A DNA stretch of 35,152 bases, taken from assembly GCA_028289585.1 (NCBI GenBank), contig JANQPI010000043.1:1-35152 (forward strand). The letters are read 5' to 3'. Both the position numbers and the translations under genes were made by a program. Under the pieces are notes generated by a model that saw only the letters and a program-made list of their open reading frames with translations, had not been told where the DNA came from and did not search any database. Shown piece after piece: positions 324-32,938 of this stretch; the first letter of the stretch is position 1; every line of letters begins with the position of its first letter. The DNA comes from Candidatus Zixiibacteriota bacterium. GTDB lineage: Bacteria; Zixibacteria; MSB-5A5; GN15; FEB-12.

Positions 324-1439
324 CTACCCCTCGATCATTTCGACATTGGCGCGCGGCACCGTTGCCTCGGAACCATCGTCGAACTTCACCGTCAACACAC
401 GCGCTTTCGACTCCGATTCTAGCGCCGTCAACTGTGGCGGCAGACCGGTGACCGCACCGAGCTTGCCAAAGTGCGGATGACGGATGACTCGAATCGGTGA
501 ACCGATGCTGAGGCCAAGCACGTCACCAGCCGTTTCCTCAGCCGCTTTCTCAGCGGCGGGAATGACGACCTCGGGGCGAATGACACCGGCGCGAATCTGG
601 GTCGCACCGTTCATGGACGCGCTTTCGCCCTCGTGGCGCCTGAGCAGGTCGAACGTCTTTTGCGCCATCGTGATCTGACCGAAACCCTCGGTGACGACGA
701 GTTTGGTGTAGATATCTTCCGATCCGGTAATCGCGACCCCAATATCGTAGCCGAGGAAGTCGCGCAGATCTTTGTCGTCGAATCCGCCGACAACAATGCC
801 GCGGACCTTGAGCTCTATCGCCTTCTTGAGGGCGGCAGCGGTAACAAGTGAGCCGCCGACCAGAATCTTGTCTTTGTGCTCGGGTTTGATGAGGTCGTCG
901 GAGAGAACGACCGACGGATTGTCGACCGCGATCTCGACCTGGCCGTGGGTCTCGCCGCCGATACCAAAGATTCCCTGGATGAACGATGCTGAGGTGGAAA
1001 CGACAACACCCTCGTTGGGAATCACTTCGGTGATGGTCCCGGAGAGGTACGCTTTCACCTCAACCGGTGTCGGCTCGGCGCGCTGCAGAACCTGTCCGGT
1101 GACCTTGGAGATCGACTCAATCGTTCCCGAGATCGTCGCCTTACTCTCACTCTTGAAGATCCAGAGAGTGACCGAACGAGCGATAACCTCACCTTCGGCC
1201 ATCGGGTCGCCCTCTTTCTTAATCATCACCGAGTCGATGTCCTCCGGCGGGATGCCAAGCTGGTTACTGACATTGATCGGCTGGACCGCACCGGGGAGGA
1301 GGGTGCGGGCAACAACGTCGTCGGGACCGACCGTGTCGCCTACCTTGACGAGCACGTCCCCTTTGAGCGGGAGGATGCGGCGTTTTTCAACCGTGAGATT
1401 CTCAGTGACTTTCAGTCCGGGAGTATATGCGTGAGCCAT
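324..1439 (-). CDS. KOW-motif protein with N-terminal barrel-sandwich region, third gene of the GlmL operon
   Basis: This is a 371-residue soluble protein with no signal peptide or membrane segment. The N-terminal part (about 20-130) is rich in short beta strands with GDVLVKVGDTVGPDD, reminiscent of barrel-sandwich (RnfC or biotinyl-like) folds. The middle (about 175-290) has an alpha/beta pattern with DKILVGGSLVTAAALKKA and RGIVVGGFDDKDL. The end (about 313-371) is a KOW/SH3-like beta barrel with IRVIRHPHFGKLGAVT and a closing VPRANVEMIEG. It lies 32 bases downstream of the PsbP-like gene and is the last gene of the three-gene operon facing the cassette array. I know of no assigned function. 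The context suggests a cytosolic partner of the GlmL-like ATPase or of the membrane complex. The KOW call is fairly safe, the barrel-sandwich call less so. Confidence 0.8.
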   Translation of the reverse strand: MAHAYTPGLKVTENLTVEKRRILPLKGDVLVKVGDTVGPDDVVARTLLPGAVQPINVSNQLGIPPEDIDSVMIKKEGDPMAEGEVIARSVTLWIFKSESKATISGTIESISKVTGQVLQRAEPTPVEVKAYLSGTITEVIPNEGVVVSTSASFIQGIFGIGGETHGQVEIAVDNPSVVLSDDLIKPEHKDKILVGGSLVTAAALKKAIELKVRGIVVGGFDDKDLRDFLGYDIGVAITGSEDIYTKLVVTEGFGQITMAQKTFDLLRRHEGESASMNGATQIRAGVIRPEVVIPAAEKAAEETAGDVLGLSIGSPIRVIRHPHFGKLGAVTGLPPQLTALESESKARVLTVKFDDGSEATVPRANVEMIEG

Positions 1440-1471: not shown

Positions 1472-2248
1472 TTAGCTTTCTTGTTCACTTCCGCGTCTCC
1501 GACGAAACGCTATCAGAGCGATTCCGAGGAGGAGTACGGCTGCGATGATATATATCCAGTTTGGGATTGTCGTGCTGCCACCGGCGGACTCGGATTCGAG
1601 ATCGATCTCGGCGACCCGAACCGGTGCAATCTGCTCGGGGAGTGGTTCACCAGTCGAAAAAGAGCCGATCATGCCGGCGAAAAGCGCTGCAACCTTGTCA
1701 AAACGTTCCACCGGCGAATAGACGTAGAAATTCGCGACGCCACGTTCGTAGAGTTTGATGACCAGCAGGTTGCGGCGTAACACCTCGTCACCAAAGCGGT
1801 CTCCGGTCAATGTCGCGATGATTCCGCGTGATTCATCGTAGACGATCGACGTCTGCAGAATCGGATTCGCAAAATCTGACAGTGGCTGTTTGAGGATCTC
1901 GCCTCCGAAGACCTCGCGAAGAGTTGACATGAGGGAATCGGGAGCGGCGCCGGTCAATTCACCGACCGTGTCGACAGTCAGAAAGAGATATTCCTGTTCG
2001 TGGAACGGGATCGTATCGCGTGGCGCCAGGACAACTTCGTAGGCCGGTATGGTGCCGTCGCGACTTTGGCGACTCAGGAAAAAGTTAACCGTGGTAAACG
2101 GAACCTGCTCCCAGCTCTCCGGATATTCGAAGTAGAACTTCCCATTGAAGGAGATGAAGTACTGGTTGGCTGCGGCCGGCAGGGCAAGGAGCAGCAGCAG
2201 CCCTATCACCCGCATCGTGATCCCCCGACCCCGTCGCTGTTGCGTCAT
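1472..2248 (-). CDS. Exported, C-terminally anchored protein with PsbP-like domain
   Basis: This 258-residue protein starts at an ATG that overlaps the TGA of the upstream GlmL-like gene by one base (TGATG), which implies translational coupling. A second ATG at 2212 would put a cleaner signal peptide (MRVIGLLLLLALPAAANQ) at the start. The mature part opens with FNGKFYFEYPESWEQVPF, the pattern of PsbP-like domains of exported bacterial proteins. It ends in a hydrophobic helix (IYIIAAVLLLGIALIAF) followed by RRRRG, which places the tail in the cytoplasm and the domain outside. A reading that extends upstream to 2290 overlaps the GlmL gene and is unlikely. Its role is unknown. It is probably the extracytoplasmic member of the operon that faces the cassette array. 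Confidence 0.8.
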   Translation of the reverse strand: MTQQRRGRGITMRVIGLLLLLALPAAANQYFISFNGKFYFEYPESWEQVPFTTVNFFLSRQSRDGTIPAYEVVLAPRDTIPFHEQEYLFLTVDTVGELTGAAPDSLMSTLREVFGGEILKQPLSDFANPILQTSIVYDESRGIIATLTGDRFGDEVLRRNLLVIKLYERGVANFYVYSPVERFDKVAALFAGMIGSFSTGEPLPEQIAPVRVAEIDLESESAGGSTTIPNWIYIIAAVLLLGIALIAFRRRRGSEQES

Positions 2249-4098
2249 CAGGCCGGCAGCTCCGGATAGATGTTGAGTTCTTTGAACCACGTCGTCAGGT
2301 ACTTAACCCGATCTCCGGCGTTCAAGCTGGACAGGTCGAACGGCCGACCGCGCCCGTCCAGGATCAGGCCAACGACGCCGCCATGGACGGTTGTCTCGAT
2401 CTTTTTGCCCGGCCCAGCGCCCATGTCGAAGTTTCCAAGAGGTTCGAACGATGCCTTGGCGGTTACCGGCAGACCGTTCTCGGCAACGCCGAGGTTGAAG
2501 AGCTTCATCTCCAAATGATTGAGCGTGCCGGTGACAGTACCGTCGGGCAGCTCAATCGAATAGTTCATGACTGGACCACCCTTTTTCGACTCACCATGCG
2601 GCGCCACACAGGTGCCGAGGTGAATGAGGCAGTCTTTGGCAAAGACTTCGGTCGCGGCCGAGGGTTGCACCTCGGTGAGTACACCAAGCTGCGGCATCAT
2701 GAAGATCGAGTCGACGGCAAGCCGTGTCACACCCTCCGGGAGGAACGCGTCGATCATCATCATTGCCGACTGCTGACGCCGCGGTGCGTGAGAGAGGACT
2801 CCGCCCGATCCGATGAGCATGTCAAGTTGCATCATGTTGACAATTGTCGCGCCGGACGTTGTCTGTTCGAAGGCGTCAGCGATCGTTCGCTGCTGCTGAA
2901 CACCCTTAAGCTCGGTGGCGAAGTTCTTGTGCTGAATGAAGGCGAGTCGAAGGGCTTCCTTGGCGATCGCCTGTTCGAAGACAAGCTCTTCCAGGGACTG
3001 TGGAATCGTCGTTGGACGAATCATCTTGTTCTTCACGCGGTTGCGCAGATCGCGTTCATCCATGTCGAACGGAACCCAGCGCATGACCATCGGCAACGTC
3101 GCCTCAGCAAAGACGTTCGAGATCGAGTACGACATCCCGAGGTTGGCGGAAACCGTACGGTTGAACACGGGCGTCTGGCCATCGGGACGGAAGACCGAAA
3201 AGACGTCGGTCGTCGCGCCACCGATATCGACTCCGACGGCGGTGATTTTGTACTGGTCGGCAATCGTCTGAATGATTAACCCAACCGCACCCGGTGTCGG
3301 CATAATCGGGGCATCGGTCCAGGACATGAGCTTCTTGTAGCCCGGAGCCTGAGCCATGACGTGTTCCATGAACAGTTCGTGGATCTCTTCTCGTGCCGGG
3401 CCGAGATTCTCCTCCTCCAGCGTGGGGCGGAGATTGTCGACGACACGGAGGTCAACTTTCTCGTCGAGCGTCTCCTTGACATTCGGTGTCGCATCCTTGT
3501 TACCGGCGTAGATAATCGGCAGATTGTACCCCGAGCCGAGTCGCGGTTTCGGGTCGGCCGCGGAGACGAGTTCGGCAATCTCAACGACGTGCGTCTTGGT
3601 ACCGCCGTCGATACCGCCTGACAGCAGGATCATATCAGGCCGCAGCGCTCGGATGCGTTCGATCTGTTGGTGGGGGAGACGTTTATCATTCGACGCGATA
3701 ACGTCCATCACGATCGCCCCGGCACCGAGAGCGGCACGCTCGGCCGACTCGGCGGTCATTGAGCGTACGACACCCGCGACCATCATCTGCAGTCCACCAC
3801 CGGCCGAGGAGGTCGAGATGTAAACATCGGTACCGGTTGTGCCGTTGGACGGCGTTATGATGCGGCCGTCCTCACCCAGCAGTTGTCGGCCGGAGAGCTC
3901 TTGAAGCTCCTGGACCGCGTTGAGCACGCCCATCGTGACATCTTCAAACGGAGCTTCGACAGTCGTCGGCGCTTCACCGCGCGATTTGAGGCGGTATTCG
4001 CCGTTGTCGTATTCGATAAGGATGGCTTTGGTCGTGGTCGATCCGCAGTCGGTCGCAACGATGACTTTGATGTTATCGGGGTTATCAAACTTGGCCAT
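2248..4098 (-). CDS. glmL: GlmL/MutL-family ASKHA ATPase (glutamate mutase L-like)
   Basis: This 616-residue cytosolic protein has a full ASKHA layout. Phosphate-1 is ATDCGSTTTKAIL (about 15-27), phosphate-2 is VGVDIGGATTDVF (about 288-300), and the adenosine loop is LIGSGGVLSHAP (about 428-439). A further LLSGGIDGGTKTH lies at about 158-170. This matches the family named glutamate mutase L, thought to be a chaperone or reactivase-like partner of B12-dependent glutamate mutase in clostridia. It is unrelated to mismatch-repair MutL. No glutamate mutase subunit or other B12 enzyme is in the window. The gene instead heads an operon with a PsbP-like exported protein and a KOW protein, divergent from twelve membrane-complex genes. 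I infer that its client here is that complex. The symbol denotes the family, not a proven function. Confidence 0.88.
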   Translation of the reverse strand: MAKFDNPDNIKVIVATDCGSTTTKAILIEYDNGEYRLKSRGEAPTTVEAPFEDVTMGVLNAVQELQELSGRQLLGEDGRIITPSNGTTGTDVYISTSSAGGGLQMMVAGVVRSMTAESAERAALGAGAIVMDVIASNDKRLPHQQIERIRALRPDMILLSGGIDGGTKTHVVEIAELVSAADPKPRLGSGYNLPIIYAGNKDATPNVKETLDEKVDLRVVDNLRPTLEEENLGPAREEIHELFMEHVMAQAPGYKKLMSWTDAPIMPTPGAVGLIIQTIADQYKITAVGVDIGGATTDVFSVFRPDGQTPVFNRTVSANLGMSYSISNVFAEATLPMVMRWVPFDMDERDLRNRVKNKMIRPTTIPQSLEELVFEQAIAKEALRLAFIQHKNFATELKGVQQQRTIADAFEQTTSGATIVNMMQLDMLIGSGGVLSHAPRRQQSAMMMIDAFLPEGVTRLAVDSIFMMPQLGVLTEVQPSAATEVFAKDCLIHLGTCVAPHGESKKGGPVMNYSIELPDGTVTGTLNHLEMKLFNLGVAENGLPVTAKASFEPLGNFDMGAGPGKKIETTVHGGVVGLILDGRGRPFDLSSLNAGDRVKYLTTWFKELNIYPELPA

Positions 4099-4171
4099 GG
4101 AATCAGCAACCAGTCCTCGATGAGGGTAACGGGTTAAGTCGTTGCCGCCGTTTCGCTCGCGGCAGGCCTGC

Positions 4172-4201
4172 TATATAAGGGAGCCGTTCTTTCGTTGTAA
4201 A
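4172..4201 (-). promoter_or_regulatory. Candidate sigma70-type promoter for the glmL operon
   Basis: Read on the minus strand, TTTACA (4201-4196) and TATATA (4177-4172) are separated by 18 bases. Transcription would start about 65 bases upstream of the glmL ATG. This is the most AT-rich spot of the divergent region. The call rests on consensus resemblance only. Confidence 0.45.
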
Positions 4202-4263
4202 GTCGATTGTGGCTGTCAGTCCGGTCGGAGTGGGCACGAATCGCTGCAAGTGCATAATTCTCC

Positions 4264-4292
4264 TTGACTTGGCCCACCGGCCCCGATACGTT
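4264..4292 (+). promoter_or_regulatory. Candidate promoter for the twelve-gene cassette operon
   Basis: TTGACT (4264-4269) is followed after 17 bases by TACGTT (4287-4292). The -35 is good and the -10 is weak. It would give a leader of about 160 bases before the first cassette gene at 4458, which itself has no clear Shine-Dalgarno sequence. Confidence 0.3.
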
Positions 4293-4457
4293 CCGCGCCA
4301 ACCGTTGCGAGACACATCTTCTGTCACTCGCGCGGTCGGGGATTGGTGGTAAAGGGAGCATGGCACCGCGGGTTTTGGAACGCATTTTCACGTTACAAAT
4401 GAACACTGACGCCGTTTCGGCCGTCGCCTTCCTGACGGGCTCACCTGCCATCCTCTC

Positions 4458-5693
4458 ATGAACGTTCGACGCCCCCTCTGTCTCCTCTTTGCAGTCTTTG
4501 CCATCGTTGGTCTGTCTCGAGCTCAGGACGGAGACGGCGCGGACACCGCTTCTGCTGAAATCATTGCCGAAGCCGCACCCGTCATCTCACCGCTTCCGGT
4601 ACCCAGCGTTACGGCCTCCGATGTTCCCAACGATGATGGCTCCGCGATTTTGGTCGAATGGGAGCTGTCGCCGTCCGACTCAGTCGGAGGGGCGGTAGTT
4701 GGTTATCGAATCTATCGGGCCTTTGCTGACTCAGGCGTCTTTGTTGTGATTGGCAATCGGTCAGCTCGCCAGAACTCGACGGTCAATGGTGAGGAAGTCG
4801 AACCGGGCGTTGACTATCTCTATCGAGTCGATGTCCTCGCGGTGCGCACCAACGCCGATGGCAGTAGCGATACCCTCGCGATTCCCTCACAGTCGAGTGT
4901 GCCCGTGGCCGCCGTCGTGCAGTGGTTCAACACAGATCGGCTATGGGCCTTGATCTGGTTTGTGATTATTGCGGCGGCAACGATCTATTTCATCGAAAAG
5001 GCTAAGCGGGGTGGCAATATCTACGTTCGGAAGATCGGTGGTATTGACGCTGTCGATGACGCCATCGGTCGTGCTACCGAGATGGGTCGCAAAGTCTTCT
5101 TCGTGCCGGGTATTCAGGATATGAACGATGTCCAGACGATTGCCGGTATCGCTATTCTGGGCCGCGTTGGCGCTGTCGCCGCGGAATATGAAACACGACT
5201 CGAAGTGCCGACGTCGCGCTCCATGGTCATGGTCACGGCCCGCGAAACGCTGAAGGAATCGTATTCCAAGGCTGGTCGTCCCGATTCATTCCAGGAAGAT
5301 CAGGTCTATTATCTGACTGACGAACAGTTTGCGTATGCGGCGGCGGTTGACGGTCGCATTGTCCGGGAACGCCCGGCGACGATCTTCTATATGGGTGCGT
5401 TTTTTGCCGAGTCCCTGATTCTCTCCGAAACCGGTAATGCTGCTGGCGCGATTCAGATTGCCGGTACCGCCGAACCTACCCAGCTCCCGTTCTTTGTCGC
5501 TGCCTGTGATTACACGCTTCTGGGAGAGGAATTGTTTGCGGCCTCAGCTTATCTCTCTCGAGAGCCGCGCCAGCTCGGTTCACTCAAGGGGCAGGATTTC
5601 GGGAAAGGGATCTTTCTACTCGCCATTTTGCTCGGGGTCATTTTGGCCACCGCGAATCTGATCGACCTTTCACAGTACTTCAGGATTAACTAA
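4458..5693 (+). CDS. Cassette protein A1: FN3 ectodomain, membrane anchor, DUF6754-like domain
   Basis: This 411-residue protein starts with a signal-like segment (about 6-20) and continues with an acidic linker. An FN3-like beta domain follows (about 50-150; ILVEWELSPSD, GYRIYRA, YLYRVDVLAV). A membrane helix (about 162-179) ends in EKAKRGG, which puts the rest in the cytoplasm. The conserved domain (about 188-385) carries DAIGRATEMGR, PGIQDMNDV, TDEQFAY, RERPATIF, GAIQIAGT and FFVAACDYTLLGEELFAASAYLS. A last hydrophobic helix lies at about 388-405. I recall this domain as DUF6754, of unknown function. A1 opens the first cassette, 13 bases before B1. A2 and A3 are close relatives in the cytoplasmic part and poor ones in the ectodomain. 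The family link is from memory; the architecture is read directly. Confidence 0.85.
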   Translation: MNVRRPLCLLFAVFAIVGLSRAQDGDGADTASAEIIAEAAPVISPLPVPSVTASDVPNDDGSAILVEWELSPSDSVGGAVVGYRIYRAFADSGVFVVIGNRSARQNSTVNGEEVEPGVDYLYRVDVLAVRTNADGSSDTLAIPSQSSVPVAAVVQWFNTDRLWALIWFVIIAAATIYFIEKAKRGGNIYVRKIGGIDAVDDAIGRATEMGRKVFFVPGIQDMNDVQTIAGIAILGRVGAVAAEYETRLEVPTSRSMVMVTARETLKESYSKAGRPDSFQEDQVYYLTDEQFAYAAAVDGRIVRERPATIFYMGAFFAESLILSETGNAAGAIQIAGTAEPTQLPFFVAACDYTLLGEELFAASAYLSREPRQLGSLKGQDFGKGIFLLAILLGVILATANLIDLSQYFRIN

Positions 5694-5706
5694 CTCAGGT
5701 CTGCCG

Positions 5707-6372
5707 ATGCGCCGCGAAGTACCATTACTCATTACCTTCATCACCGGAGTTGTTTTTGCCCTCTCGTACTTCATTCCCGGTGGTTGGCTTGGTCAGACTG
5801 AGCGGGTATTCGGTGATTGGATTACGATCGTTCAGGCGTTTGCAGTCTGGTTGGGTGTGCTCAATCTGCTCAAGATCTCCCTCATCAAGATCCAGCGTAA
5901 AGAACACGATTGGGGGTACTCGGTTGTCATCGCGGTCTGTTTGGTTGGTACCATTGCAGCTGGCATGTACTCCGGATTTGCCCCCCAATTTGAGTCGTTC
6001 CGTGATCCTGAGACGCCGTTTAACTTTATCTTTCGGAATATCTTCGCGCCCCTTGGGGCGACGATGTTTGCGATTTTGGCGTTCTATGTCGCCTCGGCCT
6101 CGTACCGAGCGTTTCGTGCCCGTAATCGCGAAGCTACAATTCTCCTGATCGCATCATTCTTCGTGATGGGCGGACGAGTGCCGCTGCTTGACTCAATCTT
6201 CATGCCGATTATCGACGGTACATTCTTCGCCGACTTCGCCGGTTGGATTATGAGTTATCCCGTTACTGCCGGTCAGCGTGCGATTGCGATCGGTATTGCT
6301 CTGGGAATTATGGCCAGTTCGCTCCGCGTGATTCTGGGCATCGAACGATCACACATTGGCGGAGGCAACTAG
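5707..6372 (+). CDS. Cassette protein B1: polytopic membrane protein
   Basis: This 221-residue protein has about six hydrophobic helices (near 6-23, 39-56, 72-88, 116-134, 145-165 and 187-208). Signatures shared with B2 and B3 are a basic loop after helix 2 (NLLKISLIKIQRKEHDW), ATMFAILAFYVASASYRAFRARN (about 118-140), and the C-terminal GQRAIAIGIALG plus ILGIERSHIG. The arginine-rich SYRAFRARN segment is the strongest and probably sits on the cytoplasmic face. No catalytic motif or transporter family is recognised. B1 lies between A1 and C1, with 3 bases before C1. Its role as a structural subunit of a membrane complex is inferred from context. Confidence 0.83.
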   Translation: MRREVPLLITFITGVVFALSYFIPGGWLGQTERVFGDWITIVQAFAVWLGVLNLLKISLIKIQRKEHDWGYSVVIAVCLVGTIAAGMYSGFAPQFESFRDPETPFNFIFRNIFAPLGATMFAILAFYVASASYRAFRARNREATILLIASFFVMGGRVPLLDSIFMPIIDGTFFADFAGWIMSYPVTAGQRAIAIGIALGIMASSLRVILGIERSHIGGGN

Positions 6373-6375
6373 CCC

Positions 6376-7311
6376 ATGGCCGGTCACTGGATCGCCGTTG
6401 CTATCAATGTCGTCGTTGGCCTGACCTTGGTTTGGGTCTTGGTCCGCACGATCCAGGGGCGACCGATTGAACGTCGGATCGTTTTTGTCTACATCGCGCT
6501 TGCCGTGGCAACACCCCTTTTCATGAAGCTTGAGGCGCCACTGGCCGAGACGCCGGAGGTTCAGTCGATCGTGACGACGATCAAGGAGCTACCGCCGGGC
6601 TCTCGAATTCTGATATCGTTTGATTATGATCCGCAGTCGGCTCCGGAGCTGCAGCCGATGGCCGAAGCGTTTATCAAGTTCGCATTCAAACAGCGTCACA
6701 AAGTAATCATCATGGGGCTGTGGCCACTCGGACCGGATCAGGCCAACCAGGCGATCCGCGCGGCCTTAGAAGATCCGTCGGTCGCCGAGCTCGCGCCCGA
6801 GTACGGTGTCGACTATGTCAACCTCGGCTTCCAGTCGGGCAATGAGTTTGTGATTCAGGGAATGGGTTCGGCCTTTAAGAACATGTTCCCCCAGGATGAG
6901 CGTGGGACGATCTACGACAATATTCCGATCCTCAGGGGGGTGACCAACTTCTCCAATGTCGATTACGTTCAGGTCTTTTCCTCCGGGAAGCCGGGAACGC
7001 GGGAGTGGGTTCAGGTTGCGGCCGACCGCTTTGGTGCGACTGTGGGCGGCGGAACGACGGCGGTTCAGGCACCGGAGATGTATCCCTTCCTTCGCTCTAA
7101 CCAGTTGATTGGACTAATGGGCGGAATGACCGGCGCCGCGGAGTTTGAGAAGGCTGTCGAAGAACTGGGCAAAGCGAACACGTTTCTGCTATCACAGATG
7201 TTCGCGCACGCAACGGTCATTGTCTTCGTGATCTTTGGAAACATCGCGTACTTCCGGTCGCGTCGCCGAGATGCTTCAACGGATGCGCCAACACCGGGCG
7301 GGATTAGTTAA
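6376..7311 (+). CDS. Cassette protein C1: membrane-anchored extracytoplasmic alpha/beta protein
   Basis: This 311-residue protein has two N-terminal helices (about 6-23 and 35-50) separated by a basic loop (RTIQGRPIERR). A soluble domain follows (about 55-270), then a final helix (about 275-293) ending in RSRRR. The positive-inside rule places the soluble domain outside the membrane. Motifs shared with C2 are PPGSRILISFDYDP (about 73-86), ELQPM, YVNLGFQSGNE (about 147-157), FPQDERGT and LMGGMTGAAEFE (about 247-258). C3 keeps part of them. The strand-helix rhythm suggests a Rossmann-like fold, but I recognise no enzyme family. The conserved Asp and Glu could bind metal or another subunit; this is a guess. 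C1 is 3 bases from B1 and 3 from D1. Confidence 0.83.
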   Translation: MAGHWIAVAINVVVGLTLVWVLVRTIQGRPIERRIVFVYIALAVATPLFMKLEAPLAETPEVQSIVTTIKELPPGSRILISFDYDPQSAPELQPMAEAFIKFAFKQRHKVIIMGLWPLGPDQANQAIRAALEDPSVAELAPEYGVDYVNLGFQSGNEFVIQGMGSAFKNMFPQDERGTIYDNIPILRGVTNFSNVDYVQVFSSGKPGTREWVQVAADRFGATVGGGTTAVQAPEMYPFLRSNQLIGLMGGMTGAAEFEKAVEELGKANTFLLSQMFAHATVIVFVIFGNIAYFRSRRRDASTDAPTPGGIS

Positions 7312-7314
7312 GCC

Positions 7315-7968
7315 ATGAGTCTCGATATTGGCGTCTGGATTGGCGCCCTGCTGACCCTGGGAATCTTCTCGTTCTTGTACAGGGATAATCCCTTCTACAA
7401 GCTCTGCGAGTCGATCTTCGTTGGTGTCTCTGCCGGCTACTGGTTCTGCGTCTTCTTTTTCGACAACATGGTTCGGAAATTCTACTTCGGCGTCTTTCCG
7501 TCGGAAGCAGGTATCGAGCCCAAGTATTTCCTTATCGTCGGGGCAGTCCTCGGCGCGTTAATGCTGACACGTTTGATCCCATCGATAGGTTGGATCTCTC
7601 GCTGGCCGCTGTCGTTTATTGTCGGTGCTACCGCCGGCCTGTACATGATGCTCTTCTTCGTCTCCAACGGTCTCAATCAGGTCGCCGACACCATGTTGCC
7701 GCTTTATCGCGAAACCGCTGGGGGTGACTTCGATCCGGCTGAAACACTGGGTACAATTCTCGTCTTCATCGGAACGTTCACCGGTCTGATCTATTTCTTC
7801 TTTTCCAAGGAACACAAGGGATTGTTCGGCGGAGCTGCTCGCGTCGGTATCTTCTTCCTGATGGTTACCTTCGGTGCTGCGTTTGGGTATACGGTCATGA
7901 GCCGTATGTCGCTGCTAATCGGCCGCATGGATTTCCTCTTCCGCGACTGGTTGGGTCTGCTCGGATAG
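7315..7968 (+). CDS. Cassette protein D1: polytopic membrane protein
   Basis: This 217-residue protein is mostly hydrophobic. It starts with a helix containing FSFLYRDNPFYK (about 18-29), followed by GVSAGYW, both conserved in D2 and D3. Later shared motifs are SRWPLSFIVGATAGL, GLIYFFFSKEHKG and the C-terminal FGAAFGYTVMSRMSLLIGRM. The DNPxYK segment after the first helix and the SKEH turn are the polar spots most likely to matter. I know of no functional assignment. D1 closes the first cassette. Its TAG is one base before the ATG of A2, so translation of the two cassettes is probably linked. Confidence 0.83.
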   Translation: MSLDIGVWIGALLTLGIFSFLYRDNPFYKLCESIFVGVSAGYWFCVFFFDNMVRKFYFGVFPSEAGIEPKYFLIVGAVLGALMLTRLIPSIGWISRWPLSFIVGATAGLYMMLFFVSNGLNQVADTMLPLYRETAGGDFDPAETLGTILVFIGTFTGLIYFFFSKEHKGLFGGAARVGIFFLMVTFGAAFGYTVMSRMSLLIGRMDFLFRDWLGLLG

Positions 7969-7969
7969 C

Positions 7970-9199
7970 ATGATGCCCCCCGCTCCCGGAGCACGGTCCA
8001 TTGCGTCCGGGGGGCGGGTTCTCATTCTCACTCTGACTCTCATCACCCTGACATCGTCACTTCTCGCGACCGATCCCGGTCCCGGATCGATTGCACCGCC
8101 AACGCTCATCATGGTCAACGATCTCGACTATGATAACGGTGAGTCGTTAACGATTTCCTGGGTACCGTCACTCGACGACGTTCCTGGCCAGTCGGAGGTC
8201 GTTGCGTATCGGATTCTTCGGTCGTCAGGAGGCGGTCAGGAAGCAACTATCGGGACTGTTCTCGCGGGTGAGTCGACATTCGTCGACCAATCAGTGAACC
8301 GTGACTCGGCGTACGTCTATCGGGTGGCAACGATCGCTGCGAATGGAGGTGAGGGGTACTCACTTCCCACCGATGCCGTTGTGCCGAACCGGGAGTGGTT
8401 GAATTGGGATCTGGTTTGGCTCTTTCTGGCCTGTCTTGTTTTAGGCGGATCAGTCGTCTTCTTCATTGAGACTGCCCGTCGCGGCAAGAAGCTGTTTGTT
8501 CGCAAGATCGCGGGGCTAGAAGCGATCGACGAGGCGATTGGTCGGGCGACTGAAATGGGTCGACCGATTCTCTATATCCCGGGAATCCAGGATATGGACG
8601 AGGTCGAAACGCTCGCCTCACTGACGATTCTTGGCAAAGTAAGTCGCCAGATTGCCGACTACGACACCCAGCTCTTCATGCCGGTCGCTCGCTCGCTGGT
8701 CATGACCGCCGGCCGGGAGACGATCAAGACGTCATATCTTGAGGCGGGTCGTGCGGATGCGTTCAACGAGGATATGGTACGGTACATCACCGATGAGCAA
8801 TTCGGGTATGTTGCCGCGGTTGATGGGTACATGGTGCGCGAGCGCCCGGCCACGATATTCCTGCTGGGAGCGTTCTTTGGTGAATCGCTGGTGCTCGCCG
8901 AGATGGGTAACTCCGTCGGTGCGATTCAGATTGCCGGTACCGCACGGCCACCGCAGATACCGTTCTTTGTTGCAGCCTGCGATTACACGCTGATCGGTGA
9001 GGAGTTGTTTGCGGCTTCGGCCTATCTTTCCGGTGAACCGCGTCAGCTTGGTTCCTTAAAGGGACAGGACGTGGGCAAGGGAATCGCCATGGCGGTTATT
9101 CTGATCGGTGTCGCGGCCGCCACGATTGCCGAACTTACCGGCAGCGGGTTTTTCGCCGGAGTTGTCAGCACTCTGCAAAACGTCTTCACCACTCGTTAG
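7970..9199 (+). CDS. Cassette protein A2: FN3 ectodomain, membrane anchor, DUF6754-like domain
   Basis: This 409-residue paralogue of A1 has a signal-like helix at about 17-33, an FN3-like part at about 43-138 (SLTISWVPSLDD, AYRILRSS, YVYRVATIAA) and a membrane helix at about 147-167 followed by ETARRGKK. The cytoplasmic domain keeps VRKIAGLEAIDEAIGRATEMGR, PGIQDMDEV, TDEQFGYVAAVDG, RERPATIF, GAIQIAGT and FFVAACDYTLIGEELFAASAYLS. A C-terminal helix follows. In this domain A2 is visibly closer to A1 than A3 is, for example in the shared PGIQDM. A start at the second Met (7973) is equally possible. It lies one base after D1 and 8 bases before B2. Confidence 0.85.
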   Translation: MMPPAPGARSIASGGRVLILTLTLITLTSSLLATDPGPGSIAPPTLIMVNDLDYDNGESLTISWVPSLDDVPGQSEVVAYRILRSSGGGQEATIGTVLAGESTFVDQSVNRDSAYVYRVATIAANGGEGYSLPTDAVVPNREWLNWDLVWLFLACLVLGGSVVFFIETARRGKKLFVRKIAGLEAIDEAIGRATEMGRPILYIPGIQDMDEVETLASLTILGKVSRQIADYDTQLFMPVARSLVMTAGRETIKTSYLEAGRADAFNEDMVRYITDEQFGYVAAVDGYMVRERPATIFLLGAFFGESLVLAEMGNSVGAIQIAGTARPPQIPFFVAACDYTLIGEELFAASAYLSGEPRQLGSLKGQDVGKGIAMAVILIGVAAATIAELTGSGFFAGVVSTLQNVFTTR

Positions 9200-9207
9200 G
9201 CTGGTCG

Positions 9208-9885
9208 ATGAACCGTACGCTGCCGTTTCTATTGACGTTTATTGTCGGCTTTACCATTGTCATTGCGACGTTCTCGCCGCCGCTCGATCGTCTGGCGGTC
9301 GATACTGCAGTCTTCTTTTCAATCATCGCGGTCTTTGCCATGATTCTCGGGGGTGGCAACCTCGTGAAGATCAATCTCGTCAAGATCACCCGCCGGCAGC
9401 GCGACTGGCAGTTTGCCATCGTCACGCTCGTCGGCTTCTTCTTTGTTCTGATTATCGGGCTGTTCAAGGTTGGCAACCCGGGTGGTGTCACCGGGCAGGT
9501 AGATGCCCCGGGCACTCCGTTCTTCGACGTCTACACTTACGTTTTTGTCCCGGTCGGAGCGACGATGTATTCACTCCTGGCGTTCTTCATCGCTTCGGCC
9601 AGCTACCGCGCTTTTCGGGCGAAAAACCGCGAGGCGACGATTCTCCTGATCGCAGCGTCGATCATCATGCTCGGGGCTACGCCGTTCGGTACGATGCTCA
9701 CTGCCTGGATTCCGGATAGCCTCGATATCTTTGAGGTTCCCAACCTCCATTTCTTCCTCATGTCATCTCCGAATCTTGCCGGCCAGCGAGCGATCATGAT
9801 TGGCATTGCTCTCGGTGTGATCTCCTATTCGCTACGCGTACTCCTGGGGGTCGAACGATCCCATATCGGGAAGGATGGCGGGTAG
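9208..9885 (+). CDS. Cassette protein B2: polytopic membrane protein
   Basis: This 225-residue paralogue of B1 and B3 has the same six-helix pattern. It keeps the basic loop NLVKINLVKITRRQRDW, then ATMYSLLAFFIASASYRAFRAKN and EATILLIAA, and ends with GQRAIMIGIALG and VLLGVERSHIG. The loop between helices 3 and 4 (GNPGGVTGQVDAPGTPF) differs from B1 and is probably extracytoplasmic. It sits 8 bases after A2 and 2 bases before C2. Function is unknown. The strict conservation of the Arg-rich segment in all three copies points to a common contact, perhaps with the cytoplasmic domain of A. Confidence 0.83.
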   Translation: MNRTLPFLLTFIVGFTIVIATFSPPLDRLAVDTAVFFSIIAVFAMILGGGNLVKINLVKITRRQRDWQFAIVTLVGFFFVLIIGLFKVGNPGGVTGQVDAPGTPFFDVYTYVFVPVGATMYSLLAFFIASASYRAFRAKNREATILLIAASIIMLGATPFGTMLTAWIPDSLDIFEVPNLHFFLMSSPNLAGQRAIMIGIALGVISYSLRVLLGVERSHIGKDGG

Positions 9886-9887
9886 GT

Positions 9888-10802
9888 ATGACAACGGGAG
9901 TCATTTTTACATTGGTCGTGATCGGTGGGGCTCTGGCGTACTTTGCCTGGCGTTCACTGCGCGGCAAGGAAATCGACCGGCGTCTGATCTTCCTCGTAAT
10001 CGGAGCCACGGTGGCGCTGCCGCTGATCTTCCCGCTGGAATTTGAGCATCAACCGTCGCCGCTGGTTGAACGCATCTATGAGCGTATTGAGGCGCTACCG
10101 CCCGGTAGCCAGATCTTACTCTCCTACGATTTTGATCCGGGGATGGCGCCGGAGGTACAGCCGATGGCTGACGTCATCACTCGCCATGTCCTCGCTCGGG
10201 GGCACCGCATCGCCTTTATGTCGCTGTGGGCAACCGGTCAGGCACAGCTGAATCAGACACTCAACAACGTTATTCCGGTCGACTTTCCTGAAGCTGAAAT
10301 CGAGCGTGACTGGGTGAATCTGGGCTTCAAGGCGGGTAACGAGGGTGTGCTTCGTGTTATTGCCAGTGACCTTCCCAAAATGTTCCCCACCGATGTCGAG
10401 GGACGGCCAACCGCCGGGATGCCCGCCCTGGAGGGCATCCGGTCGGCGGGTGATTTCGATCTCGTGATCTCCTTTGGTGGAGGTAAGCCCGGTCCCCGAG
10501 AATGGATTCTCTTTGTCGCTGATCCGACTGGTGTCGATTTCGCCGCCGGGACGGCGGCGGTGTCCGCTCCCGAACTCTATCCGTACTACCCGAATCAGAT
10601 GCTCGGCCTGATGGGCGGCGCGAAAGGGGCTGCGGAGTACGAAACCGCATTCATGGGCCAGTATGAGCAATTCGCCGACATGCCATCGCCGGGTCGCCGC
10701 ATCATGGGACCACTGACAATGGCCCATATTGTGATTCTGGCCCTCATCGTGCTGGGTAATGTCATCTACTTTCGTTCGCGCCGGGAGCGAGGGACAGCGT
10801 GA
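9888..10802 (+). CDS. Cassette protein C2: membrane-anchored extracytoplasmic alpha/beta protein
   Basis: This 304-residue paralogue of C1 has two N-terminal helices with an intervening WRSLRGKEIDRR loop, a soluble domain and a C-terminal helix ending in RSRRER. It retains PPGSQILLSYDFDP (about 71-84), EVQPM, DWVNLGFKAGNEG, FPTDVEGRP and LMGGAKGAAEYE. The strings LGFxxGNE and LMGGxxGAAE(F/Y)E are shared with C1. The gene overlaps D2 by four bases (GTGA), the tightest coupling in the array. Predicted topology again puts the soluble domain outside the cytoplasm. No family name is known to me. Confidence 0.83.
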   Translation: MTTGVIFTLVVIGGALAYFAWRSLRGKEIDRRLIFLVIGATVALPLIFPLEFEHQPSPLVERIYERIEALPPGSQILLSYDFDPGMAPEVQPMADVITRHVLARGHRIAFMSLWATGQAQLNQTLNNVIPVDFPEAEIERDWVNLGFKAGNEGVLRVIASDLPKMFPTDVEGRPTAGMPALEGIRSAGDFDLVISFGGGKPGPREWILFVADPTGVDFAAGTAAVSAPELYPYYPNQMLGLMGGAKGAAEYETAFMGQYEQFADMPSPGRRIMGPLTMAHIVILALIVLGNVIYFRSRRERGTA

Positions 10803-11608
10803 GGCGGAGCACGCTCATTGGCGGCAGTCTTGTCGTGGTCTTCTTTCTGGCCGCTTGGTTAATCAAGGGAGCTGGAGCGAGTGGCGAGTCACCCTACTAC
10901 TCGGCGTTTCTGATAACCCTGGCAGCATTCCTGACGCTGGCGGTCTTCTCGTTTCTGTATGCCGATAACCCGGTCTACAAGTTTGCTGAGCATCTGTTTG
11001 TTGGTGTCTCGGCAGCGTATTGGATGGTGCTCGGATTCTGGCAAACGCTCGTTCCCAATCTGATCCCCCGCATCTCTCGGGCGCTTTCGGAACAACTTGA
11101 GCTTGAATACATCGATGAACTCTGGAACGTATTGTACGTCATACCGGTCGTTCTCGGTATTCTGCTGCTACTGAGACTCTCCCGAAAGCTCGGTTGGCTT
11201 TCCCGCTATGCGGTCGCCTTCATTGTCGGGACGACTGCCGGTCTCAATTTCATTGCTTACACGCGGTCAAATTTCATGGCCCAGATCTCCTCAACGTTCC
11301 TTCCGCTCGTCGGTGATTGGACATCGTGGGCGGCGTTTGTTGACAATCTGTCGCTTTCCGCAACCGGGCCACTCGCGCTCCTGATGGCCAATATTGTCGT
11401 CGTCCTGGGGGTTGTCTGTGGCCTCATTTATTTCTTCTTTTCTCGCGAACATTCCGGCACCTTCGGCATGGCCTCGCGGCTGGGGATTTGGATATTGATG
11501 ATCACGTTCGGTGCGTCGTTCGGTTACACCGTGATGGGAAGGATTTCGCTTCTCGTTGGACGGATGACGTTCCTGCTACGTGACTGGTTGGGAATCATAG
11601 CTTCGTGA
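10799..11608 (+). CDS. Cassette protein D2: polytopic membrane protein with an extra N-terminal helix
   Basis: This 269-residue protein starts at GTG inside the stop of C2. Compared with D1 it has an added N-terminal helix (LIGGSLVVVFFLAAWLI) and a longer central loop. It keeps FSFLYADNPVYK, GVSAAYW, LSRYAVAFIVGTTAGL, GLIYFFFSREHSG and FGASFGYTVMGRISLLVGRM. The core is clearly homologous to D1 and D3. The extra helix would change the side on which the N-terminus lies. It is followed by a 23-base gap before A3, the widest inside the array. Confidence 0.82.
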   Translation: MRRSTLIGGSLVVVFFLAAWLIKGAGASGESPYYSAFLITLAAFLTLAVFSFLYADNPVYKFAEHLFVGVSAAYWMVLGFWQTLVPNLIPRISRALSEQLELEYIDELWNVLYVIPVVLGILLLLRLSRKLGWLSRYAVAFIVGTTAGLNFIAYTRSNFMAQISSTFLPLVGDWTSWAAFVDNLSLSATGPLALLMANIVVVLGVVCGLIYFFFSREHSGTFGMASRLGIWILMITFGASFGYTVMGRISLLVGRMTFLLRDWLGIIAS

Positions 11609-11631
11609 GTCTAGCTAACATAGGGTAGAGT

Positions 11632-12906
11632 ATGCAACAGAAGCACTTCTGGCGGTTCGTTATCGGCTTGGCGCTGATGACAATGGCCACGGCGCTCGGT
11701 CAGTCGGAGGCGGACCCCCCCGTCAGTGATACACTGGCCGTTGCCGACACTGCGGCGATTTCGGTTCCGGCACCACTGCCGGTGACAAACCTGATTGCCA
11801 GAGACAAACCGAACGATCGTGGGTATGGAATCTCCCTCTCCTGGGATCTTTCGCCCGACGATACCGGCGGCACACAGAGCGTTCTCGGGTATCGTATCAT
11901 GCGGTCGACAACTCCCGACGGCCCGTGGGATTCGATCAACGTTGCGGGATCCGGTGACGCGTTGTATGACCATATCGGTCCTCGCCATGAGGGCGATTCG
12001 GGGTACTTCCCCGATCACACCGATATGTACTATCGTGTTGATGTCCTCACTGCTGATCCAGGCGTGGCGGTGTCATCGGGGGTGGTGGGACCGGTCCAAT
12101 CTCGCGGACAATGGTTCAATACCGCTCGAACTGTTGTCTTTCTCTTCATGATTGCGTTCTGCGGCCTGGTCATCTGGTTTGTCACCCATGCTCGACGCGG
12201 CAAAGATCTCTATGTCCGACCGCTGGCGGGTATCGAGGCGGTCGATGAGGCAGTGGGGCGTGCTACCGAGATGGGGAAACCGATCCTCTATCTCTGTGGG
12301 CTTGGCGATGCGGCGGAAGTCCCGACGATTGCCTCGTTTACGATTCTTGGCCGAGTCGCCAAGCGGGTGGCCGAGTACCAGACCCAAATCATCGTCCCCT
12401 GCCGTGACCCGATCGTCATGACGGTTGCGCAGGAAGTGGTCAAAACCGCCTACTCCGACGCGGGTCGACCGGATAGCTATAATCCTGACTCGGTCTTCTT
12501 CCTGACGATTGAGCAGTTCGCCTATGTGGCCGGAGTGAACGGTATCATGTTGCGCGATAAGCCGGCCACGAACGTGTATATGGGCAAGTTCTACGCGGAG
12601 TCACTGATCTTTGCCGAGACGGGTACGATGGCCGGTTCGATTCAGATCGCCGGAACAGATGAGATCCCGCAGATCCCGTTCTTCTTCGTCGCCTGCGACT
12701 ACACCTTGATCGGTGAGGAGCTGTACGCGGCGTCGGCCTACCTGTCGCGCGAGCCGGTGCTCTTGGGATCGCTGAAAGCTCAGGATTACGCCAAAGCGGC
12801 GATCATCGTCTTTGCGATTCTCGGCTTCCTGGCGACCAACGTGTCCGCGCTCGGTGGGCCGGAGTGGCTGGCTGGTTTCGTTGACCTCTTCCAGGTGAGA
12901 GAATAG
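11632..12906 (+). CDS. Cassette protein A3: FN3 ectodomain, membrane anchor, divergent DUF6754-like domain
   Basis: This 424-residue paralogue has a signal-like segment (about 8-23), an FN3-like ectodomain (about 48-155; ISLSWDLSPDD, GYRIMRSTTPDG, YYRVDVLTA), a membrane helix (about 166-185) and THARRGKD at the cytoplasmic boundary. The cytoplasmic domain keeps EAVGRATEMGK, TIEQFAYVAGVNG, GSIQIAGT and FFVACDYTLIGEELYAASAYLS. It replaces PGIQDM with CGLGDA, and RERPATIF with RDKPATNV. A3 is therefore the most divergent A copy and may occupy a distinct position in the complex. It is 9 bases before B3. The ATG is preceded by an A/G-rich GGGTAGAG. Confidence 0.85.
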   Translation: MQQKHFWRFVIGLALMTMATALGQSEADPPVSDTLAVADTAAISVPAPLPVTNLIARDKPNDRGYGISLSWDLSPDDTGGTQSVLGYRIMRSTTPDGPWDSINVAGSGDALYDHIGPRHEGDSGYFPDHTDMYYRVDVLTADPGVAVSSGVVGPVQSRGQWFNTARTVVFLFMIAFCGLVIWFVTHARRGKDLYVRPLAGIEAVDEAVGRATEMGKPILYLCGLGDAAEVPTIASFTILGRVAKRVAEYQTQIIVPCRDPIVMTVAQEVVKTAYSDAGRPDSYNPDSVFFLTIEQFAYVAGVNGIMLRDKPATNVYMGKFYAESLIFAETGTMAGSIQIAGTDEIPQIPFFFVACDYTLIGEELYAASAYLSREPVLLGSLKAQDYAKAAIIVFAILGFLATNVSALGGPEWLAGFVDLFQVRE

Positions 12907-12915
12907 GAGCGAGCC

Positions 12916-13584
12916 ATGAAACGACAACTACCGTTCTTTCTCGTCTTCGTTTTCGGCGCCTTCATGGCAATTCAGTACTTCGTACCGCATAAGACGTCCG
13001 AGGCGATCTACGAGTTCTTCATCGATATTCTACCGATCATCGGTGTCTTCGCGCTGGCGTTGGGTATCTGGTCGCTGACTAAAGTGTCGGTTGACAAGAT
13101 CCGCTACCGTCGGGAAAACTGGCAGTACGCGATCTTCACCCTGCTCGGTCTCTTCCTGATGATTCTTTTCGGTTTCACCGATGAGAATTGGGGGTTCCAT
13201 TGGCGAATGAGCCCGGAGGTAGCTGGCGAGGGGACTGACAACCCGAACTTCCGCCTGCTCTTCAACTACGTGATGATTCCGATTCAGGCGACGATGTTTG
13301 CGCTGCTGGCGTTCTTCATCGCCTCGGCGTCCTACCGCGCGTTCCGCGCCCGTAACCTGTTGGCGACGTTGCTGTTGATTGCGGCGTTGATCCTCATGTT
13401 GCGATTCACCCCGTTCTTCGGCGACTGGATCGGCCTCCGCCTCTCGGAAACGGCGACGTGGTTGATGAATGTTCCCAACACGGCCGCACAGCGGGCGATT
13501 GTTATGGGAGTTGGGCTGGGGCTGGTAGCTACCGCGCTCAAGGTCGTTCTCGGTATTGAACGTGACTACATGGGACGGGGGTAG
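12916..13584 (+). CDS. Cassette protein B3: polytopic membrane protein
   Basis: This 222-residue paralogue of B1 and B2 is preceded by AGGAGC as a likely ribosome binding site. The basic loop reads SLTKVSVDKIRYRRENW. The main signature is retained (ATMFALLAFFIASASYRAFRARN), but the next positions change from REATILLIA to LLATLLLIA. The C-terminus is AQRAIVMGVGLG with VVLGIERDYMG in place of ERSHIG. It is the most divergent B copy, in parallel with A3 and C3. It is 3 bases from C3. Confidence 0.83.
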   Translation: MKRQLPFFLVFVFGAFMAIQYFVPHKTSEAIYEFFIDILPIIGVFALALGIWSLTKVSVDKIRYRRENWQYAIFTLLGLFLMILFGFTDENWGFHWRMSPEVAGEGTDNPNFRLLFNYVMIPIQATMFALLAFFIASASYRAFRARNLLATLLLIAALILMLRFTPFFGDWIGLRLSETATWLMNVPNTAAQRAIVMGVGLGLVATALKVVLGIERDYMGRG

Positions 13585-13587
13585 CCA

Positions 13588-14472
13588 ATGAAAGCAACAT
13601 TTGAAAAGTTGATGCTGCTCGACCGCCGCTGGGTCTTTCTCGCTCTGGCTGTGGTGGGCGTGGCGAGCTACTCGCTGAAAGATTTTCAGGTCCCGATTCT
13701 GGTGACCAACGAATCGCGCCAGATCTTCGCGGCGATCGATGAGTTGGAAGAAGGGGCAACGATCTTTCTGTCGATCGATTACGACCCCAACTCACTTGCT
13801 GAGCTCCATCCGATGACCTACGCGATCATGGAACACGCCTTCCGCCGAGGAGTGCGGATCGTGATCACATCGCTCTCGACCAACGGTCCCGGTATGGCCG
13901 ATGAAGCGATCCGAGCGATCGCCGATTCGGTGCGCATAGATCGCGAATACAACGGCGTCATGTATCCCGGGCGGGAGGTGGTGAACGGTGTGGACTACGC
14001 CTTCCTTGGCTACAAACCGTACCCGGCCATTGTCATCCTCGCCATGGGGCAGGATTTCCGCATACCGTTCCCGGCTGATTACTACGGAACGCCGTTGGAA
14101 GAACTGCCGCTGATGGAGAACGTCCGGAATCTTTCGTCCACGGAATGTGTCATCGTCATTACCGGGACCAACATTGCGGACATGTGGCTGGCCTATGGTC
14201 AGGCTCGACAGGGATTTCCCCTGGCTTTTGGACTGACGGGCGTGTCCACCGCTCAGTACTATCCGTACCTTAATTCGGGACAGCTCTTTGGCTTGCTCGG
14301 CGGGATGCTTGGCGCGGCCGAGTACGAGCAGTTGGCGGACAATCCGGGGCTGGCTCTCGATGGTATGCGGGTGCAACTCTTCCTGCACTGGACAATCATC
14401 ATCTTCATCGTCATTGGTAACGTCGGGTTCTTTGTTACCCGCAAGCGCCGCGGAGCGGGAGGTAACGTCTAA
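13588..14472 (+). CDS. Cassette protein C3: divergent membrane-anchored extracytoplasmic alpha/beta protein
   Basis: This 294-residue paralogue of C1 and C2 has only one clear N-terminal helix (about 15-30), preceded by DRR, so the N-terminus would be cytoplasmic and the domain outside. The C-terminal helix ends in TRKRRG. It keeps IFLSIDYDPNS (about 59-69), AELHPM, YPYLNSGQLFGLLGG and GAAEYEQ. The LGFxxGNE motif has become LGYKPYPA. A motif common to two copies is thus missing in the third, which suggests C3 is the non-equivalent partner. It shares one base with D3 (TAATG). Confidence 0.83.
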   Translation: MKATFEKLMLLDRRWVFLALAVVGVASYSLKDFQVPILVTNESRQIFAAIDELEEGATIFLSIDYDPNSLAELHPMTYAIMEHAFRRGVRIVITSLSTNGPGMADEAIRAIADSVRIDREYNGVMYPGREVVNGVDYAFLGYKPYPAIVILAMGQDFRIPFPADYYGTPLEELPLMENVRNLSSTECVIVITGTNIADMWLAYGQARQGFPLAFGLTGVSTAQYYPYLNSGQLFGLLGGMLGAAEYEQLADNPGLALDGMRVQLFLHWTIIIFIVIGNVGFFVTRKRRGAGGNV

Positions 14473-15254
14473 TGGAGTTCTGGAACTTCTTCTGGACCAC
14501 CGTCGCCGCGTTCTTCACGCTGGCCACGTTCTCATTCCTCTACAAGGATAACCCGCTATATAAGATCGCCGAGCACCTGGTGGTGGGCGTCTCCGCCGGC
14601 TTCTTCGTCATGGTACTGTGGCATACGACGCTGGTACCTAACCTCATCGATCGACTCGCTGACGGTCGCTGGATCTATCTGATCCCCTTAGTCCTGGGGC
14701 TGATGATGTGGTTCCGCTTCTCCAAGAAGCTGTCGTGGATGTCGCGGTATCCGATGGCTGTCTATATCGGCATCGGGGCTGGTGTCGCCATACCGTTGGA
14801 AATGGCGACCAAGGTCATCCGGCAGCTGAACGGGATGATGCGGCCGATCGACTGGGAGAACTTCTTCGGGGCTGGCTGGCTCGATGTCACGGCCGGTTTC
14901 TCGGGGATACTGCTCTTTGTCGGCGCGATTGCCGGGCTGATCTATTTCTTCTTCTCGAAGGCGCATACCGGCGTATTCGGCGGAGTGGCAAAGTTCGGCC
15001 TGTGGATTCTAATGCTTGGCTTCGGGGCGTCGTTTGGATTTACGGTGATGGCGCGTATCTCGCTACTCATCAACCGCATCCAGTTCCTGGATAACGAGTG
15101 GATCTCAAACGCGTTCGACAGCTCGAACGAGCATTACACGGTGATGTACCCGATTCTGTTCTGGTTAGTCATTCTCGGTTTGGTTGCGTATATCGTGTAC
15201 GAGATCATCGCATACCGGCGCCGGGGGCCTGAAGAGACAGCCGGAACGACATAG
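14472..15254 (+). CDS. Cassette protein D3: polytopic membrane protein with an extra C-terminal helix
   Basis: This 260-residue paralogue of D1 and D2 begins MEFWNFFWTTVAAFF and carries FSFLYKDNPLYK, GVSAGFF, MSRYPMAVYIGIGAG, GLIYFFFSKAHTG and FGASFGFTVMARISLLINRI. Unlike D1 and D2 it continues past the conserved end with a polar loop and one more helix (YPILFWLVILGLVAYIVYEIIAY), then RRRGPEETAG in the cytoplasm. It is the last gene of the array. The terminator stem begins 31 bases after its stop codon. Confidence 0.83.
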   Translation: MEFWNFFWTTVAAFFTLATFSFLYKDNPLYKIAEHLVVGVSAGFFVMVLWHTTLVPNLIDRLADGRWIYLIPLVLGLMMWFRFSKKLSWMSRYPMAVYIGIGAGVAIPLEMATKVIRQLNGMMRPIDWENFFGAGWLDVTAGFSGILLFVGAIAGLIYFFFSKAHTGVFGGVAKFGLWILMLGFGASFGFTVMARISLLINRIQFLDNEWISNAFDSSNEHYTVMYPILFWLVILGLVAYIVYEIIAYRRRGPEETAGTT

Positions 15255-15673: not shown

Positions 15674-16012
15674 ATGGCAACAGCCGACAAGAGCAACAGC
15701 CCGTCCGGCGCGAAGCGCGAGCTGACACCGGAAGAGAAACGTCTCAAAGAGCTTGCCGCTGCGGAAAAGCGCCGCGAATACCAACGCCGATACTACCAAA
15801 TGAACAAGGAGAAGGCGAAAGAGTATCAGCGGCAGTACAACCTGACCCATAAAAAGAAAGCCCGGGGAGGGCGCGGCAAGAACGGCGGCCTGCTCCAGCG
15901 AGAGGTGGTACGGAGTACGTTCAACACCTCCGATATTATGCATGCCCCGGCCGAGAAGGCTGCCCGCATTCTCAATAAGATAATCAACGGTGAGCGCCTC
16001 TTCACAATGTGA
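15674..16012 (+). CDS. Small highly charged basic protein
   Basis: This 112-residue protein has its own transcription signals on both sides. Residues about 15-62 are almost all Lys, Arg, Glu, Gln and Tyr and read as a long helix (KRREYQRRYYQMNKEKAKEY, then QRQYNLTHKKKARGG). The rhythm of YQ, YY and NKEK is known from small basic proteins of phages and bacteria that are probably nucleic-acid binding. The C-terminal third (NTSDIMHAPAEKAARILNKIINGERLF) looks like a separate short helical unit. AGCTAGGAAC precedes the ATG as a modest ribosome binding site. A DNA- or RNA-binding role is a guess from charge only. Confidence 0.72.
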   Translation: MATADKSNSPSGAKRELTPEEKRLKELAAAEKRREYQRRYYQMNKEKAKEYQRQYNLTHKKKARGGRGKNGGLLQREVVRSTFNTSDIMHAPAEKAARILNKIINGERLFTM

Positions 16013-32899: not shown

Positions 32900-32938
32900 C
32901 TTCTTCCTTCACATGAACTACTTAAGGGGCATGTGCTC

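Follow-up and report, generated by a model that had tools for sequence, protein, structure and literature searches.

The repeated cassette and its upstream partners

The window analysed here is a stretch of 35,152 nucleotides (contig JANQPI010000043.1, positions 1 to 35,152 of the forward strand) from Candidatus Zixiibacteriota bacterium (assembly GCA_028289585.1), a genome of 3.15 Mb in 55 contigs. Between positions 4458 and 15254, the open reading frame (ORF) list and its translations give twelve genes, in which a four-gene membrane cassette, A-B-C-D, is repeated three times. Genes M, Y and X lie upstream on the opposite strand. The features are as follows, with lengths in amino acids (aa) and transmembrane segments abbreviated as TM.

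324 to 1439, reverse strand: X, 371 aa; N-terminal barrel-sandwich hybrid (RnfC_N/lipoyl-like), middle domain with NGxTQIRAGVxRPE, C-terminal KOW/SH3-like part
1472 to 2290, reverse strand: Y, approximately 256-272 aa, between X and M; signal peptide and C-terminal TM
2248 to 4098, reverse strand: M, 616 aa; GlmL/MutL-type ASKHA ATPase (PF13941) with intact DCGSTTTK, VDIGGATTD and GSGGVLSHAP motifs
4099 to 4457: divergent intergenic region between M and A1, presumed site of both promoters
4458 to 5693, forward strand: A1; signal/TM, FN3 (outside), TM, predicted cytoplasmic Rossmann-like DUF6754 domain, C-terminal TM (the model is of A2)
5707 to 6372, forward strand: B1; integral membrane protein with motif ASASYRAFRARN, both termini placed inside by positive charges
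6376 to 7311, forward strand: C1; N-terminal TMs, six-stranded alpha/beta domain predicted outside, C-terminal TM
7315 to 7968, forward strand: D1; approximately six TMs, motifs FSFLYRDNPFYK and GLIYFFFS
7970 to 9199, forward strand: A2
9208 to 9885, forward strand: B2
9888 to 10802, forward strand: C2
10799 to 11608, forward strand: D2; GTG start, 4-bp overlap with C2
11632 to 12906, forward strand: A3
12916 to 13584, forward strand: B3
13588 to 14472, forward strand: C3
14472 to 15254, forward strand: D3; 1-bp overlap with C3
15284 to 15315, forward strand: intrinsic terminator; 13-bp stem, then TTTTTG

The initial annotation of this DNA had described twelve genes in strict order and nearly without gaps, closed by a single strong terminator, and the ORFs agree with it: successive gaps along the array measure 13, 3, 3, 1, 8, 2, -4, 23, 9, 3 and -1 bp, and the terminator stem of 13 bp compares with seven pairs or fewer in all other hits of the terminator scan. 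The signature motifs proposed for the four families recur in every copy, with YDFDP as the C2 version. In the M/A1 intergenic region, a single weak sigma-70-like match was obtained (4231-4258), no better than chance. The gene set as first drawn held the ABCD cassettes and omitted the divergent upstream genes M and X, which are the most informative partners: in neighbour-ORF clustering of the loci fetched, M and X form the sole broadly conserved group around the cassettes. Y is restricted to Zixibacteria-type loci (seven of those fetched).

Architecture of the encoded proteins

The assignment of the cytoplasmic part of A to DUF6754 (PF20539), a domain of unknown function, was upheld by scores far over the curated cut-off of 27 bits, which all five A copies of the genome pass. 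A Pfam search gave 402 bits for A1 (E 1e-120) and 393 bits for A3 (E 5e-118), and a genome search gave 398 bits for A2, 382 for copy 4 and 317 for copy 5. In the model of A2 (mean predicted local distance difference test score, pLDDT, 84), an FN3 domain is followed by one TM helix, then by an alpha/beta domain of Rossmann-like type and by a long last helix. FN3 was recovered with the A profile among PDB sequences (E 9e-28) and by fold search (E 1e-6). Positive-charge bias places the alpha/beta (DUF6754) domain in the cytoplasm. Its fold was not narrowed beyond Rossmann-like because FN3 swamped the PDB fold search of A. The ectodomains of A are highly variable, with up to approximately 1000 aa in Cloacimonadota. 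At L097:4243-7233 and L098:4380-7373, in a genome from Cloacimonadota and another that carries the label Armatimonadota, A proteins of approximately 1000 aa have a very large additional ectodomain inserted behind the N-terminal part and ahead of DUF6754. The single-contig genome G039, from the taxonomic order to which the window belongs, carries two A genes of approximately 292 aa, the size of an A without FN3, in direct tandem (G039:C1:1645616-1647296). A distant homology between A and C, suggested by eye from QxP...LIG stretches and strand order, found no support in profile-profile comparison of whole proteins or of domains.

For B, C and D, searches with copies 1 and 3 returned no significant Pfam or NCBIfam match. 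B has six TM helices in most family members, with both termini assigned to the inside by positive charges, and D has approximately six. The C1 model (pLDDT 95) shows TM helices, a six-stranded alpha/beta domain and a final TM helix, and positive-charge bias predicts that the alpha/beta domain lies outside. A PDB sequence-profile search with C gave nothing significant, and a fold search gave nothing in the PDB at E<1e-3, with only spurious matches to G-protein-coupled receptor fusions and dehydrogenases. The closest comparison is presumably with GldG-like or ATP-binding cassette (ABC)-associated periplasmic alpha/beta proteins, which have the same layout of TM, outside alpha/beta domain and TM; C differs in the lack of any Pfam or convincing PDB fold match, and its operon has no ABC ATPase. 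Profile-profile comparison gave no homology between B and D. An apparent cross-match between the C and D families came from a single ORF on a Zixibacteria chromosome (L077:15721-17436), a natural C-D fusion and the counterpart of C3-D3.

M matches PF13941 over the whole model (positions 1-450 of 450) with 436 bits against a cut-off of 27, and its ATPase motifs are invariant across aligned rows. It stays under the cut-offs of three NCBIfam models, namely NF040745 (GlmL, methylaspartate mutase accessory; 243 bits, cut-off 475), NF040744 (Or-4; 228 bits, cut-off 600) and TIGR01319 (GlmL family; 180 bits, cut-off 204), and is therefore probably a separate branch of the GlmL/MutL family. PDB sequence profiles gave no significant match. 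M shares with glutamate mutase GlmL and with Or-4 of ornithine degradation the full-length domain and the ASKHA motifs, but is distinguished by an additional approximately 130 aa at the C-terminus, by X as partner or fusion, and by its putative tie to a membrane complex rather than to a mutase. In the loci fetched, genes for the mutase S and E subunits did not turn up as a conserved group of neighbours; the search for mutases did not extend to the rest of the genome. Fusions of M and X occur in L082, L073 and L105, and in Fidelibacterota one M-X protein stands directly before A. Second, diverged M-like proteins, in frames of 930-980 aa beside a normal M, were seen in L105, G081, G089 and G040; the long frame that was read (L105:5563-8358) is an M-X fusion.

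X has a mean column identity of 58% across phyla, and no Pfam family exceeds its cut-off. At the N-terminus, RnfC_N matches 13 of 22 members (E up to 1, best 1e-6), the window's X being without a match, and NQRA_N matches seven of the 22 (best E 0.0065). Since lipoyl-like matches occur in 18 of the 22 as well, the RnfC_N similarity is read as a match to a common fold. PDB sequence profiles gave weak similarity only, to RNA polymerase beta-prime and Spt5-KOW.

Spread, co-inheritance and duplication

A scan of 84,980 species genomes revealed at least 569 stretches encoding relatives among the 582 candidates listed. As read from the best 80 stretches, these fall under approximately 15 phylum labels: Zixibacteria, Planctomycetota, Gemmatimonadota, Cloacimonadota, Caldifarciminota/WOR-3, Stahlbacteria, Fermentibacterota, Coatesbacteria, Latescibacterota, Eisenbacteria, Acidobacteriota, Fidelibacterota, Calditrichota, Armatimonadota and Myxococcota. 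The lone Armatimonadota locus groups with Cloacimonadota in the A tree and may be a binning error. Where the contig permits, the large majority of loci keep the A-B-C-D order. The full set runs as M-X-A-B-C-D along a single strand, with only short spacers or overlaps between genes, in Planctomycetota, Fermentibacterota, Acidobacteriota, Coatesbacteria and part of the Zixibacteria. The M-X pair is separate from ABCD in a Cloacimonadota genome (L099). Loci outside Zixibacteria mostly hold one cassette, and multiplication is mainly a Zixibacteria trait: all 83 Zixibacteria genomes examined carry A, with 2-6 A genes each, while A is present in 59 of 195 Planctomycetota genomes (approximately 30%, mostly single) and in three of 149 Acidobacteriota genomes.

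Downstream of the cassettes, ExbB-, ExbD- and TonB-like genes, named by eye, lie 3-6 kb away in L047, L061, L069, L072, L076, L081 and L084 (Fermentibacterota, Stahlbacteria and WOR-3). The Stahlbacteria and WOR-3 regions additionally contain a DUF4388-like and a roadblock-like gene (also named by eye). In four Phycisphaerae loci (L052, L065, L067 and L085), the cassette is followed by fatty-acid genes, which by eye are PlsX, FabH, FabD-like and FabF-like.

A and M are co-inherited. Among the 195 Planctomycetota genomes, 56 have both, three have A alone, two have M alone (one of these weak and partial) and 134 have neither (Fisher p 1e-42, uncorrected for kinship). M often lies far from A in this phylum, so linkage alone does not explain the co-occurrence. 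X was found in 55 Planctomycetota genomes; M accompanies it in every one and A in 54. All three A-bearing genomes among the 149 Acidobacteriota have M approximately 2 kb away on the same strand, and M exceeds the cut-off in six genomes of that phylum. M was also present in 41 of 41 A-bearing genomes tested from other lineages, including ones with M far from A. In the window's phylum, M occurs in 58 of 60 genomes, mostly as one full copy, as against 2-6 copies of A.

The window genome follows this pattern, with one M and five ABCD cassettes, two complete cassettes lying outside the array (L005:8426-11537 and L096:7762-10592) with A proteins that are without FN3. Among the three window copies, identity is 43-48% for A, 39-46% for B, 31-39% for C and 38-47% for D, values which indicate old paralogy and neither recent nor assembly duplication. 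In per-gene trees, the copies cluster by array position (1, 2 or 3) across Zixibacteria, with 4-5 label changes against approximately 19 when the labels are shuffled. The nearest row from another locus shares the position in 34 of 39 cases for A and for C, and in 32 of 39 for B and for D. Between the four families, patristic distances correlate with r 0.68-0.88, whereas 500 within-locus partner swaps peak at 0.42-0.53. In nearly all two-cassette arrays, all four genes agree on the type, which gives 1-2 or 1-3 arrays. A, B, C and D have duplicated and travelled together.

A proposed ATPase-coupled envelope machine and its rivals

On balance, we lean towards M, X, A, B, C and D forming one conserved cell-envelope machine, coupled to an ATPase, in which the cassettes are paralogous protomers or alternative units sharing M-X. 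B and D would supply approximately six TM helices apiece to the membrane core, to which the helices of A and C would also contribute. The C alpha/beta domain and the A FN3 domain would form the outer face and the Rossmann-like DUF6754 domain of A the cytoplasmic face. X, as a sandwich-hybrid/KOW adaptor, may connect this core to M, an ATPase of the actin/Hsp70 fold and GlmL type, such that M, by binding and hydrolysing ATP, would act via X and A to power or gate an event across the membrane. The retention of X-A or X-A-B in some Planctomycetota without other cassette genes beside them suggests that X acts on A. In Zixibacteria, whole cassettes would have been copied and have drifted apart with their gene order unchanged, M and X remaining essentially single; the one M of the window genome beside multiplied ABCD points to one motor common to paralogous membrane units. 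These paralogous cassettes may be non-equivalent protomers of a larger assembly or parallel membrane units. Gene content and order, co-duplication, co-occurrence, fusions, domain types and topology are what the analysis demonstrates; both the physical complex and its energy coupling are predictions from them.

The initial annotation had proposed an undescribed envelope complex that duplicated as whole cassettes, its FN3 and C domains facing outwards and its A domains lying in the cytoplasm. Topology and trees support this view, and the trees and patristic distances were also used to look for independent origins of the A, B, C and D copies, which were not seen. Its further proposal, that the three cassettes occupy distinct positions of one hetero-oligomer, is more tentative. 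Most other phyla have one cassette per locus, and arrays of types 1-2 and 1-3 exist, so the three types are not obligatory inside one array. A hetero-oligomer of three cassettes is possible, and the fixed order of types 1-3 in one operon favours a heteromer. In its strongest form, a new class of ATP-driven envelope machine, M-X-ABCD, whose Zixibacteria version is a heteromer built from three or more non-equivalent ABCD protomers on one motor, the idea is tentative and on present evidence rather unlikely.

A slightly better, though still less than probable, account is that the cassettes are alternative membrane units, with other cargo or partners, on the shared M-X ATPase. Arrays that lack a type, the two unlinked cassettes with FN3-less A, the A ectodomains that vary up to the Cloacimonadota size and the single cassette typical of other phyla all favour such side-by-side units, while the tight operon of types 1, 2 and 3, with an order fixed throughout the phylum, favours co-expression and co-assembly. 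In another reading, ABCD is a membrane protein or transporter serviced by M-X. M-X would then repair or load a cofactor-dependent enzyme, the role proposed for GlmL with B12 mutases; M scores above the threshold of PF13941, and among NCBIfam models it comes closest to GlmL and Or-4, accessories of B12-dependent mutases. The scores of M under all three NCBIfam cut-offs and the lack of a conserved mutase neighbour in the loci fetched make this improbable.

A redox-driven ion pump of Rnf/Nqr-like layout, with X as the RnfC/NqrA-like cytoplasmic subunit, would accommodate the six-TM proteins B and D and the RnfC_N and NQRA_N matches of X. The likeness to RnfC/NqrA barrel-sandwich hybrids is confined to that weak N-terminal match, and X differs in its middle domain without known relatives and its KOW-like end. 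Pfam and NCBIfam gave no match to iron-sulphur, flavin or RnfABDEG families in the cassette, which has no other Rnf/Nqr subunit, and M is an ATPase-type protein, so we regard the pump as very unlikely. Likewise very unlikely is a diverged secretion, ABC or Tol/Ton-type machine of known kind. The overall plan of outside domains, membrane core and cytoplasmic nucleoside triphosphatase is alike, and ExbB/ExbD/TonB-like genes lie downstream in Fermentibacterota, Stahlbacteria and WOR-3, but the searches with B, C and D described above gave no such relative, and neither a P-loop ATPase nor a subunit of the MotA_ExbB family was detected in the operon with Pfam and NCBIfam.

Several observations weigh against the proposed ATPase-coupled machine itself. 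Cassettes 4 and 5 of the window genome and the Cloacimonadota cassettes sit apart from M-X, and some Planctomycetota hold X-A with B alone beside it or with B, C and D all absent nearby. Phylogeny also enters the co-occurrence counts, which are not independent of it; many of the genomes are metagenome-assembled, so certain phylum labels may be wrong. The complex and the ATPase activity are predicted from genes and models, and GlmL relatives carry names only as accessory proteins of B12-dependent mutases.

A module so widely spread, and inherited so closely as a set, points to a basic function in the envelope, one absent from the well-studied control genomes. Searches for DUF6754, PF20539 and PF13941 found nothing in the open-access papers searched, subscription journals being outside the search; GlmL and glutamate mutase came up together in a metabolic paper. 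DUF6754 forms the cytoplasmic half of every A; it is a domain of unknown function, and those papers describe neither its operon and partners nor the multiplication. The parts are known folds (FN3, ASKHA, sandwich hybrid), while for the assembled system and for B, C, D and X no described relative was found in those papers. One subunit of the six-gene module is known only as a DUF and four belong to no family. The module offers a concrete reason for GlmL-type ATPases outside mutase operons, and the combination of one motor with one to several membrane units is a natural experiment on how complexes become hetero-oligomeric.

Further along the window, a small, very basic protein is encoded at 15674-16012, between the last D gene and a dikinase gene, and is kept in six Zixibacteria loci. 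The dikinase gene (16170-19073) is pyruvate phosphate dikinase-like, with a long Lys/Ala-rich, histone-H1-like C-terminal tail (KAAKKVTRKTAKKATAKK...). A large, secreted-looking protein without a Pfam match at E 0.1 occupies 32933-35152 and runs off the window end.

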